Source: Sphingomonas radiodurans
GTDB taxonomy: Bacteria > Pseudomonadota > Alphaproteobacteria > Sphingomonadales > Sphingomonadaceae
Direction: 5' to 3'
Assembly (NCBI RefSeq): GCF_020866845.1
Contig: NZ_CP086594.1
Coordinates: forward strand, 3,500,001-3,564,000
Length of the DNA: 64,000 bases
Both the position numbers and the translations under genes were made by a program. Positions within the stretch are counted from its first letter, which is position 1. Each line of letters starts with the position of its first letter. Shown piece by piece: positions 51,503 through 55,821 of this stretch. The notes below the pieces were generated by a model. It ran no database searches. It was not told the DNA's origin and worked only from the letters and a program-made list of their open reading frames with translations.

Positions 51503-53007
51503 GTGCGTCGATCGCCAGCGGCGCCGCGATCGGCGCGCCGCCACCCGCCCGCCGGCTACGCTCGGGCACGATGGCGAGCTACGGCTTCGGCGCCGCCGCC
51601 TATGGCGTGAAGGATTCGGGCTTCGGCACCTTCCTGCTGCTTTTCTATAATCAGGTGATCGGCGTGCCCGCGGCCACCGTCGGCTTCGTCATCATGCTCG
51701 CGCTGGTGATCGACGCCTTCGTCGATCCGACCGTCGGCTTCCTCTCCGATCGCACCCGCACAAAATGGGGCCGCCGCCACCCGTGGCTCTACGGCTCCGC
51801 GCTGCCGATCATGCTCGGCTGGGTGCTGCTGTGGAACCCGCCGCAATCGTCGCAAGCGGCGACGCTCGGCTGGCTCTTCGTGATGGCGGTGCTCGTGCGC
51901 AGCGCGGTGAGCGCGTATGAAGTGCCAAGTCAGGCGATGGCGGCCGAACTCAGCGCCGATTATGACGAGCGCACGCGGATCATGGCCACTCGCTACCTGT
52001 TCGGCTGGCTCGGCGGGCTGATCATGCTGATCGGCGCTTACTGGATCTTCCTGTCGCCGACTCCCGAATACCCCAATGGCCTCCTCAACCCCGCCGGTTA
52101 CAAGAGCTTCGCAATCGCCGGCGCATTGTTCATGGGTTTCGCGATCCTCACCTCCGCACTCGGCACGCACCGCGAAATCCCAAACCTGCCCAATCCAGTG
52201 ATCGAGAAACAATCGCTGAAGAAGAATTTCGCGGACCTGCGCGAGACGATGAACAACCGCGCCTTCGTAATCCTGATGATCGCTGGCCTGTTTGTGTATA
52301 CCAATCAGGGCATCACCTACGCGATCTCGAATTACCTCTACACCTATGTCTGGCAGTTCACGACGATCACGGTCGTTGGCTATACGCTGCCCACTTTCGT
52401 GCCGCTCAGCTTCTCGCTATTCGGCGGCGTGCTCGTCGCCTTCGTCGTCGCGCCCAAGCTTGGCAAGACGACCAGCAAGCCCAAGGCCGCCTCCGTCGCT
52501 GCGGTCCTCGCGATCATCATCGGCACTGCGCCTTATTGGCTACGGCTGGCGGGTGTGTTCCCGCAGGTCGGCGAGCCGGCGATGCTGCCACTACTCTTCG
52601 CCTTCCTCGCCGCCGGCACCGCAGCTGGCGTCACCGCGCACATTCTAGGCGCTTCGATGATGGCTGATGTCGTCGAGGATTCTGAGCAGCGCACTGGGCG
52701 CCGTTCGGAAGGCGTATTCTTCGCCGGCGGCTTCTTCATCCAGAAATGCACCAGCGGCGTCGGCATCTTCGCGACTGGCCTTATCCTCGCGGTTGCCGGC
52801 TTCCCGGCGAAGGCGGTGCCGGGGCAGGTGCCGGTCGAGGTCGTCGATCGCCTGACGATCATCTACATCGTCACTGCCACCGTTCTCGCGCTGATCGCCG
52901 CGGTCGCCTATCGCAAGTTCCCGTTTGGCCGTGCCGAACATACGGCGCGGTTGGAGGCGCTACGGATGCAAGCGCTCGATTCGGATCGCGTCGACCCCGT
53001 GCCATAA
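51499..53007 (+). CDS. Major facilitator, GPH (sugar/cation symporter) family
   Basis: About 502 residues with twelve hydrophobic segments, the first after about residue 30. The motif DAFVDPTVGFLSDRTRTKWGRRHPW and later ADVVEDSEQRTGRRSEGVFF are the hallmark of the glycoside-pentoside-hexuronide symporters (melibiose-like). It probably imports a glycoside or an organic acid with H+ or Na+. The GTG start overlaps the SDR stop (GTGA). Not part of an obvious sugar operon. Confidence 0.85.
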   Translation: MSASIASGAAIGAPPPARRLRSGTMASYGFGAAAYGVKDSGFGTFLLLFYNQVIGVPAATVGFVIMLALVIDAFVDPTVGFLSDRTRTKWGRRHPWLYGSALPIMLGWVLLWNPPQSSQAATLGWLFVMAVLVRSAVSAYEVPSQAMAAELSADYDERTRIMATRYLFGWLGGLIMLIGAYWIFLSPTPEYPNGLLNPAGYKSFAIAGALFMGFAILTSALGTHREIPNLPNPVIEKQSLKKNFADLRETMNNRAFVILMIAGLFVYTNQGITYAISNYLYTYVWQFTTITVVGYTLPTFVPLSFSLFGGVLVAFVVAPKLGKTTSKPKAASVAAVLAIIIGTAPYWLRLAGVFPQVGEPAMLPLLFAFLAAGTAAGVTAHILGASMMADVVEDSEQRTGRRSEGVFFAGGFFIQKCTSGVGIFATGLILAVAGFPAKAVPGQVPVEVVDRLTIIYIVTATVLALIAAVAYRKFPFGRAEHTARLEALRMQALDSDRVDPVP

Positions 53008-53103
53008 GCGCCGAATTTCGACGAAACTGCGACGAAACGGCACTTCATCGGCGCGGCAACACCGTTCGTCCGAATAGGTTCCCGCAGCTATTGGTATATC
53101 TTC

Positions 53104-53152
53104 CGACCCCCCGTAGCCCCGCTGCAACGAACATCCGCTGACCGGGGGGTCG
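53104..53152 (+). promoter_or_regulatory. 5' leader hairpin covering the CHAP gene ribosome-binding site
   Basis: CGACCCCCCG (53104-53113) and CGGGGGGTCG (53143-53152) form a perfect 10-bp stem with a 29-base loop. The G-run that would serve as ribosome-binding site is inside the 3' arm, which ends two bases before the ATG at 53155. A TATATC (53095-53100) could be the -10 box, putting the RNA start close to the stem. Translation must therefore be limited by this hairpin; what opens it is unknown. Confidence 0.65.
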
Positions 53153-53154
53153 CA

Positions 53155-53721
53155 ATGAATTTCAAGAATTTGACAGCGCGTTTCGCGCTGATGGCATCGT
53201 GCGCCCTGATGACGGCCACCGAAGCAAGCGCACAATTCTGGCAGTGTGCGCCTTACGCCCGCGAGATCTCGGGCATCCAGATCCGCGGCAACGCGAATAC
53301 TTGGTGGGGCCAGGCTGCCGGCCGTTACGACCGTGGCGATACGCCGAAGATCGGTGCGGTCCTATCGTTCCAGTCGACCCGCCGCATGCGCGTCGGCCAC
53401 GTGGCGATGGTTAGCCAGATCGTCAGCGACCGCGAAGTGCTGCTTACCCACGCCAATTGGTCGCGCCGCGGCGGGATCGAACGTGACGTGCGCGCAATCG
53501 ACGTCTCGCCGGCGGGCGACTGGAGCATGGTGAAGGTTTGGTACGGCCCCCAGGGCGGCCTCGGCACCTCGAGCTACCCGACCAACGGCTTCATTTATTC
53601 CGATCAGGCCCCCTCGGCCCCGACGCTCGATCGCGACCTCGACGAGACCCGCCTTGCCAACATCACCATCGCCACTGCCGCAGCCGTGCCGATGAAGGGC
53701 GCCGTCACGATAGCGAATTGA
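53155..53721 (+). CDS. Secreted CHAP-domain amidase
   Basis: A 188-residue exported protein: signal peptide 1-26 ending EASA-Q, then a CHAP domain with the nucleophile Cys31 in WQCAPYAR, the His in RVGHVAMVSQI and the third catalytic Asn in LTHANWS. CHAP enzymes cleave peptidoglycan peptides. The C-terminus (about 130-188) is a less ordered tail. It is single, with a tight hairpin over its start and the paired palindromes after it; low and conditional expression is plausible for a wall hydrolase. Confidence 0.85.
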   Translation: MNFKNLTARFALMASCALMTATEASAQFWQCAPYAREISGIQIRGNANTWWGQAAGRYDRGDTPKIGAVLSFQSTRRMRVGHVAMVSQIVSDREVLLTHANWSRRGGIERDVRAIDVSPAGDWSMVKVWYGPQGGLGTSSYPTNGFIYSDQAPSAPTLDRDLDETRLANITIATAAAVPMKGAVTIAN

Positions 53722-54561: not shown

Positions 54562-55821
54562 ATGCTCGACACCGCATCGCCCCGCACAATGGTCGCCACC
54601 ATGGCCACTGACGCGCGCCACGCCGCCGCCTGGCTCGCGCAAACCCCGACCGAGCACCGCCGCGCCGCACTGCGCGAAGCCGCCAGCGCGATCCGCGCCG
54701 CCGTCGATACGATCCTCGCGGCCAACGCGGCCGATATGGCGAAGGCCGAAGCGAACGGCCTTTCTCCTGCGATGCTCGATCGCCTTCGCCTAGACGCTGG
54801 CCGCGTCGCCGCGATGGCGGACGGCGTCGCAATCGTCGCGACGCTCGCCGATCCGGTCGGCGAGGTGATCGACACCGCGACTCGCCCCAACGGCCTTGTC
54901 CTGTCGCGCGTACGCGTGCCGATCGGGGTGATCGGCATCATCTATGAGAGTCGCCCCAACGTCACCGCCGATGCAGCAGCTCTCTGCGTCATGTCGGGCA
55001 ACGCCGTGATCCTGCGCGGTGGCTCAGAAGCCGTCGAAAGCAACGCCGCGATCCACCACGCCTTCTGCGCCGGCCTGGAAGCCGCCGGCGTCCCCGCCGC
55101 GGCGGTGCAGCGCATCGCCACAACCGATCGCGCCGCCGTCGGCGCGATGCTCGCCGCCGAAGGCGCGATCGACCTCATCATTCCGCGCGGCGGCAAGAGC
55201 CTCGTCGCGCGCGTCCAGGCCGAGGCGCGCGTGCCAGTCCTCGCGCATCTCGACGGCATCAATCATATCTTCGTCCACGCGTCTGCCGATCCGTCGATGG
55301 CCGAGGCGATCGTCGTTGACGCCAAGATGCGCCGCACAGGCGTGTGCGGCGCAATGGAAACGCTGCTGATTGACTCAAGCTATCCCGATCCCGCGCGGCT
55401 CATTGCAGCGCTAACCGCTGCCGGCTGCGAAGTCCGCGGCGACGATCGTGTCCGCGCCCTCGCAAGCGTCGGACCCGCCGCCGATGCCGACTGGGACACC
55501 GAATATCTCGAAGCGATCTGCGCCGTCGCCATCGTCGATGATCTCGACGCCGCGCTCGCGCACATCGCCCGCCACGGCTCGCGCCACACCGACGCGATCG
55601 TCACGACCGACGCGGGTGTCGCCGAACGCTTCCTCGCTGAAGTCGATTCGGCAATCGCCCTGTGGAACGCCTCCACGCAATTCGCCGACGGCAGCGAGTT
55701 CGGCCTCGGCGCCGAAATCGGCATCGCCACCGGCCGCCTCCACGCCCGCGGCCCGGTCGCGCTCGAGGGGCTCACGACCTACAAATGGATCGGTCGCGGC
55801 ACTGGGCAGGTGAGGGGCTGA
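54562..55821 (+). CDS. proA: Gamma-glutamyl phosphate reductase
   Basis: A 419-residue enzyme of proline synthesis that reduces glutamyl phosphate to the semialdehyde. Seen: RPNGLVLSRVRVPIGVIGII, the NAV ILRGGSEA segment, the active-site cysteine in RRTGVCGAMETLL and the C-terminal ALEGLTTYKWIGRGTGQ. The start is uncertain (ATGs at 54562, 54589 and 54601), none with a good ribosome-binding site; the first is used. proB is not in the window. It abuts the next gene on the other strand with no gap. Confidence 0.93.
   Translation: MLDTASPRTMVATMATDARHAAAWLAQTPTEHRRAALREAASAIRAAVDTILAANAADMAKAEANGLSPAMLDRLRLDAGRVAAMADGVAIVATLADPVGEVIDTATRPNGLVLSRVRVPIGVIGIIYESRPNVTADAAALCVMSGNAVILRGGSEAVESNAAIHHAFCAGLEAAGVPAAAVQRIATTDRAAVGAMLAAEGAIDLIIPRGGKSLVARVQAEARVPVLAHLDGINHIFVHASADPSMAEAIVVDAKMRRTGVCGAMETLLIDSSYPDPARLIAALTAAGCEVRGDDRVRALASVGPAADADWDTEYLEAICAVAIVDDLDAALAHIARHGSRHTDAIVTTDAGVAERFLAEVDSAIALWNASTQFADGSEFGLGAEIGIATGRLHARGPVALEGLTTYKWIGRGTGQVRG

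Follow-up and report, generated by a model that had tools for sequence, protein, structure and literature searches.

A perfect 10-bp inverted repeat lies immediately upstream of a gene encoding a CHAP-domain protein in Sphingomonas radiodurans, and its 3′ arm contains the G-run at which the ribosome would bind. The earlier note on this DNA proposed that the repeat folds in the mRNA into a stem that hides the ribosome-binding site and is too strong to be opened without a dedicated factor. Is this stem the element that evolution has kept at the start of the gene, or does the locus carry another one? We addressed this question by comparing the locus in the window (the whole 64,000-nt stretch of DNA analysed) with its counterparts in other Sphingomonas genomes; L and G numbers below are our handles for loci and genomes.

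The CHAP gene and the ten-base-pair stem

The gene and the two arms of the stem are located as follows:

53155-53721, + strand: gene for a CHAP-domain protein of 188 aa, probably secreted (open reading frame and Pfam PF05257)
53104-53113, + strand: 5′ arm of the 10-bp stem, CGACCCCCCG, read from the sequence and placed in the predicted −35/−10 spacer
53143-53152, + strand: 3′ arm of the 10-bp stem, CGGGGGGTCG, in perfect pairing with CGACCCCCCG

The assignment of the gene to the CHAP family, already made in the earlier note, was confirmed by a match of the 188-aa product to PF05257 (56.9 bits vs a curated cut-off of 26, E 3e-15). The only NCBIfam model found was PcsB, far under its cut-off (26.9 vs 450 bits), and the only remote PDB relative found by sequence was 2lrj. 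No in-frame ATG, GTG or TTG precedes the ATG at 53155 in the open reading frame. Secretion, also claimed before, is probable, with the signal-peptide-like character of the N-terminus judged by eye and not by a predictor. The protein is probably a secreted, putative peptidoglycan hydrolase. Of the 295 genomes of the genus, 294 had a match to it at E up to 1e-20, as did all 264 of good quality; in three of the 294 (G239, G267 and G305) the best E values were just 2.4e-30, 8.9e-48 and 1.4e-43, and these matches may be to a second CHAP gene. In other families of the same order, a match to the protein was observed in one of 24 genomes (G050). Relatives were found in 53 plasmid records, and a search of 50,697 phage records with a cut-off of E 1e-5 gave none.

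For the comparison of leaders, loci were gathered from one genome group (80, the best 80 of 245 confirmed) and from further genomes (84), with 30 genomes picked for having proteins among the most divergent and 20 regions picked by hand from listed places. The resulting 165 loci, window included, were thinned to less than 85% identity, leaving 86 leaders, in each of which the start was located. The proteins were as little as 57% identical to that of the window, measured on the best tblastn segment.

Direct reading of the sequence bore out the geometry reported for the stem: ten perfect pairs, a 29-nt loop (53114-53142) and two bases, CA, between the stem and the ATG at 53155. The direct repeat CCGCTG described in the loop is also real, with copies at 53119-53124 and 53135-53140, and neither copy is present in any of the eight close relatives. 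Out of 200 shuffles in each case, one equalled the stability of the 54-mer alone (z −2.76), six that of the region 53100-53200 (z −2.08) and 34 that of the 141 nt from 53060 to 53200 (z −0.91).

Examination of the orthologous leaders, proposed earlier as a check, told against the stem. All ten pairs were found in one of the 86 non-redundant Sphingomonas leaders, that of the window. Perfect helices of at least 8 bp involving the 5′-arm region occurred in five leaders (window, L003, L005, L011 and L107) vs 0.52 expected from mononucleotide shuffles, and four of these five (window, L003, L005 and L011) are close relatives sharing a C-run. Partial stems were observed in close relatives, with 8 bp in L003, L005 and L011, 7 in L008 and 9, one of them G-U, in L006. 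In the window and its eight relatives (a set from which L120 and L122 are absent), none of the stem pairs had changed on both sides; the 3′ arm is invariant in this set, so that the changes in the 5′ arm are uncompensated, yet covariation could not have appeared there. Across the 86 leaders, the information content was 0.02-0.25 bits at 53104-53108 and 0.38-1.05 bits at 53109-53113. The 3′ arm is mostly conserved because it includes, besides the ribosome-binding site, the 3′ half of a different hairpin, described below as hairpin 1. The 10-bp stem was therefore rejected as a conserved element, on the grounds of its single complete occurrence, the neutral first half of its 5′ arm and the uncompensated changes. 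It probably arose mainly by chance, from a promoter spacer rich in C lying opposite a G-run ribosome-binding site.

Promoter-like and operator-like sequences upstream

The region upstream of the leader contains the following features:

53044-53082, + strand: operator-like block conserved in the 86 leaders, with TTCATCGG at 53044-53051, TTCGTCCG at 53065-53072 and GGTTCC at 53077-53082
53091-53096, + strand: predicted −35-like element TTGGTA (T at 53091 and 53092 with frequencies of 0.98 and 0.81 in the 86 leaders)
53114-53119, + strand: predicted −10-like element TAGCCC (T 0.85, A 0.56; no T at −7)
53126, + strand: predicted start of transcription, for a leader of 29 nt (conserved C-A-A-C at 53125-53128, with frequencies of 0.81, 0.71, 0.57 and 0.79)

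The distance between the TT at 53091-53092 and the TA at 53114-53115 is 23 nt in 82 of the 86 leaders and 24 nt in the other four, a spacing that would suit a −35 and a −10 element separated by 17 nt. A scan of the locus with the sigma-70 consensus found no promoter; PMC8407463 describes alphaproteobacterial promoters as often having no T at −7.

Further upstream, two TTCRTCGG-like half-sites lie 21 nt apart in 82 of the 86 leaders, and the alignment columns of 53066 and 53077 are 11 nt apart in all of them. The distance from GGTTCC (53077) to the −35 element is 14 nt in 50 leaders, 25 nt in 25, 3 nt in six and 24, 15 or 4 nt in the other five, and in the MAFFT alignment it thus changes by roughly one helical turn at a time. 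These steps suggest that a putative, face-dependent activator of transcription binds at 53044-53082, and this spacing is good indirect evidence for the position of the promoter. The RNA would then probably start around 53126, downstream of the 5′ arm, and the mRNA would lack that arm. With the 5′ arm in a promoter-like spacer and the stem unconserved, the argument that such a strong stem calls for an opening factor falls. The hairpin that is conserved has a moderate predicted stability (−6.2 kcal/mol at 37 °C for 53139-53157).

A subgroup of leaders (L012, L017, L018, L022, L025, L026, L037 and L065) has the GGTTCC block further upstream; several of its members contain an extra GTTCATC- or GTTCGCC-like copy after GGTTCC, and the −35 region in this subgroup reads GGGTTTTCA or is GGGTTTCCA-like.

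Genome-wide and with one mismatch allowed, the tandem operator pattern had 150 matches vs 13 in the control, probably by picking up coding codons, and TTCRTCSGNNNNGGTTCC gave 8 matches vs 1, two of them exact, including L174; neither search identifies a regulon. CenR, whose regulon is marked by TGA-N8-TGA sites, was set aside as regulator of the operator-like block, given that CenKR homologues are reported absent from Sphingomonadales in PMC9275681.

Two small hairpins around the start codon

The comparison of the 86 leaders pointed to other structures, one on each side of the start codon:

53140-53151, + strand: hairpin 1, GACC-GGGG-GGTC, 4 bp, holding the ribosome-binding site (conservation and covariation)
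53144-53149, + strand: ribosome-binding site, the G-run GGGGGG, shared between the loop of hairpin 1 and its 3′ arm (sequence)
53174-53190, + strand: hairpin 2, CAGCGC-GTTTC-GCGCTG, in codons 7-12, starting at +20 (codon bias, synonymous-codon test and pair counts)

The G residues at 53145-53147 are present in at least 98% of the 86 leaders. A hairpin at the ribosome-binding site, defined by a minimum of 4 bp in the stem, two or more of them GC pairs, a loop of 3-9 nt and GGGG in loop plus 3′ arm, near the start, was predicted in 80 of the 86, with loops of 3-7 nt. Six leaders failed this rule (L025, L145, L146, L147, L152 and L172), and at least four (L026, L112, L125 and L134) passed it through other pairings. 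Compensated stems occurred in several lineages: GGTC/GACC in L138 and L139, TTGCC/GGCAA in L144 and L149, GAGCC/GGTTC in L148 and L170, GCGGC/GTCGC in L010 and L024, GGGGCT or GGGACT with GGTTCC in L068 and L171, and GGGGAA/TTTTCC in L129.

The covariation of these stems was quantified in two alignments and in an alignment-free test; as the leaders are mutually related, the shuffle frequencies given here are not probabilities. The structure-fitted alignment A4 comprises 82 of the 86 leaders (L130, L145, L147 and L151 are absent), with matches limited to E 0.1 and three at E up to 1 excluded (two off-target ones and L151). In it, all four pairs of helix 1 had changed on both sides, and the two helices together showed 20 double-change cells vs 1.7 in shuffles, with 0 of 500 as high, counts that lean towards structure because 27 common-type leaders had served as the seed of the model. 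None of the 500 shuffles reached any of five measures, and slid versions of the helices came nowhere near. The signal was weaker in the unfitted MAFFT alignment of all 86 leaders, in which the two helices gave 19 double-change cells vs 8.9 in shuffles (0 of 500) and a covariation score of 0.168 vs 0.137 (0 of 500). Here, helix 1 was 79% paired, one pair being broken in 34 of 86 rows by loop-length misalignment; sliding the 3′ partners by +1 left double-change pairs (6) and cells (19) equal, but only 29.8% was paired and the score dropped to 0.032.

When halves of the hairpin were exchanged between species, native pairing was better, and 4 of 20,000 permutations were as good for the 86 leaders, 25 of 20,000 for the 62 unique types and 322 of 20,000 for the 23 leaders with a non-TC tail; scored by folding energy, the test was weaker (634 of 20,000). 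On a quick protein tree, in which 14 of 83 inner branches are well supported, a four-state stem label assigned by eye (L112 being labelled 'none', though it passes the later rule) took 14 changes, and alternative stems vs the other labelled groups took 6, at least 3 of them forced by well-supported branches. Taken together, the local pairing predicted for the ribosome-binding site and the compensatory changes, read with the caveats of the alignments, indicate that the ribosome-binding site of the CHAP gene is held in an evolutionarily kept hairpin. The claim that this site is hidden in a hairpin is supported as regards a hairpin, and is not supported as regards the 10-bp stem.

Hairpin 2 lies in the signal-peptide codons and begins approximately at the edge of an initiating ribosome. 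Codons 7-12 of the window gene are ACA GCG CGT TTC GCG CTG. Among the rows with the common residue, GCA was used in 57 of 64 at codon 7, GCG in 77 of 79 at codon 8, CGT in 63 of 85 at codon 9, GCG in 81 of 84 at codon 11 and CTG in 77 of 80 at codon 12, the overall usage of these choices in the same genes being 10%, 45%, 17%, 45% and 55%, respectively. Neighbouring codons are enriched for GCT, TTG, GCA and GTT/GTA, unlike the GCG and CTG of codons 8, 11 and 12. The A-R-x-A-L motif was recognised in 81 of the 86 genes, and every one of these 81 had a strong hairpin 2, vs a mean of 13.7-17.2 from resampled synonymous codons and a maximum of 23 with N-terminal usage. Covariation in helix 2 was thin (4 double-change cells in the fitted alignment and 7 in the unfitted one), with one clean double compensation, GTG...GCA in L111. 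The codon data indicate that hairpin 2 is under synonymous constraint.

The element appears specific to this gene within its own genome. RNA model R1 recovered this locus strongly (E 1e-13), and its 11 other matches had E values of 0.088-9.6; two of these weak matches, at 54681-54736 (− strand; E 1.2) and at L185 (E 0.088), are probably due to chance. A regulon sharing hairpin 1 in this genome was rejected, since the motif pattern had 5 matches vs 8 in the reversed control and R1 a single strong match. Over 119 genomes of the family, R1 found the window genome only, in a search of low sensitivity, as under strict filters it also missed G010 of the same genus, whose locus L108 scores 31.4 bits with R1. 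Two CHAP matches are listed for most of the 295 genus genomes, and the second CHAP gene of the own genome (G000:C1:563676-564158, L118), 50% identical, was rejected as a sharer of the element, its leader being devoid of the two-hairpin arrangement. Nor is the element a known Rfam leader: in 52900-53400 no match reached its gathering score, and all five sub-threshold ones were far below it, the best being L19_leader (15.3 bits vs 36, E 2.3).

Predicted folding and competing explanations

In the predicted transcript, the probability of hairpin 1 was 0.38, 0.54, 0.65 and 0.64 at 20, 28, 37 and 42 °C, with no predicted melting, and hairpin 2 was formed almost always. When the transcript was extended to include the 5′ arm, the 10-bp stem dominated the predicted fold (0.96-1.0) and hairpin 1 was lost. 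This combination of partial occupancy of hairpin 1, near-constant hairpin 2 and loss of hairpin 1 in the presence of the 5′ arm favours tuned initiation. Compared with 175 other genes, whose starts were guessed, the CHAP leaders were not exceptional in stability (−6.55 vs −5.85 kcal/mol); their smaller spread (sd 1.38 vs 3.64) is suggestive of selection holding a moderate stability, and may also reflect common descent.

On balance, we moderately favour a reading in which the functional element is the roughly 50-nt region of translation initiation in an mRNA starting near 53126, where two small hairpins would tune initiation. The conservation, the covariation of hairpin 1 and the synonymous constraint on hairpin 2 are read directly from the compared leaders; from them we infer the RNA start, the formation of the hairpins in cells and the effect on translation. 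The start codon would lie in an open stretch between the two hairpins. The ribosome would pair first with the exposed loop Gs of hairpin 1 and next melt its short GC-rich stem, whose stability would set the initiation rate, and hairpin 2 would act as insulation by stopping the start of the coding region from pairing with the G-run. This would restrain the production of a wall hydrolase that could be harmful.

A comparable case is the coat gene of phage MS2, for which hairpin stability sets translation, with values of −6.63, −7.93 and −9.49 kcal/mol at 42 °C (de Smit and van Duin 1990, as cited in PMC9894550). As there, part of the ribosome-binding site lies within a small hairpin, whose stability is predicted here to be of the same order; unlike there, where the hairpin includes the start codon, the start codon here is outside, between two hairpins of which the second is coding. 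Thermometers of the fourU and ROSE types, as generally described, also have the ribosome-binding site in a hairpin near the start, but the present element shows neither U-rich pairing to that site, nor a predicted fall in pairing from 20 to 42 °C, nor any link to heat shock or virulence. Translational riboswitches and ribosomal-protein leaders are conserved, covarying leader structures upstream of one gene family. The present structure resembles them in being conserved and covarying before one gene family, and differs in being very small for an aptamer, in having a loop unconserved beyond the G-run and in the Rfam result given above. In the portions available of the open-licence literature on Sphingomonas ribosome-binding-site hairpins and RNA thermometers, translation of CHAP hydrolases, sequestered ribosome-binding sites and structured RNAs of Sphingomonadales, the element is not reported, and a term search of the main text of PMC2864571 gave no mention of Sphingomonas.

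Among the alternatives, the one that survives best, although we regard it as unlikely, is a regulated switch in which an RNA-binding protein, a C-rich small RNA or temperature acts on hairpin 1, alone or together with hairpin 2, so that translation of the hydrolase would be tuned to the state of the wall. Conservation of the structure across the genus on one hydrolase, with one strong model match in the own genome, would fit such a switch, and the G-rich loop may be open to a C-rich partner. On the contrary, the variable loop length and stem letters argue against a sequence-specific binder, and the predicted occupancy of hairpin 1 does not fall over 20-42 °C. In its more specific form, a genus-specific riboregulatory element whose two hairpins bracket the start codon and in which a putative RNA-binding protein or small RNA acts on the G-rich loop and couples hydrolase synthesis to wall state, we likewise regard the idea as unlikely.

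It is also improbable that the hairpins are by-products, hairpin 2 reflecting nothing but constraint on codons or amino acids, and hairpin 1 arising from a G-run in a GC-rich genome. G-runs do pair easily with upstream CC, and a lenient hairpin score was passed by 62 of the 175 other genes as well as by 82 of the 86 CHAP leaders; moreover, the signal-peptide residues A-R-F-A-L are conserved and double changes in helix 2 are few. However, the synonymous simulations fell far short of the observed 81 of 81, the choice of GCG and CTG for codons 8, 11 and 12 departs from the enrichment of neighbouring codons, and the letters of the hairpin 1 stem covary beyond the G-run.

We give similarly little credence to the model of the earlier note, in which the 10-bp stem in the mRNA blocks the ribosome until a protein, small RNA or ligand opens it. 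The stem is perfect and GC-rich, would dominate the fold if transcribed, and is partly kept by close relatives; against it stand the neutrality of the first half of its 5′ arm, in a promoter-like spacer, its lack of conservation and of compensation, and the fact that it would destroy hairpin 1. Finally, it is very improbable that hairpin 1 works at the DNA level, as a palindromic repressor site immediately following the promoter. The GACC/GGTC dyad does lie 14-25 nt downstream of the predicted start, but its arm spacing varies from 3 to 7 nt and its arm letters change in pairs, and dimeric DNA-binding proteins normally need fixed letters and spacing.

Altogether, the locus most likely carries two small RNA hairpins at the start of the gene that are kept across the genus Sphingomonas and would set the frequency of translation initiation. 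The case also illustrates that a striking perfect stem in one genome misleads when one of its arms sits in the promoter, and that the real element becomes visible by comparison only. The synonymous constraint makes hairpin 2 directly addressable by silent mutations. If the tuned-initiation reading is true, this would be a clean, genus-wide and covariation-supported case of control of a peptidoglycan hydrolase at the level of translation.
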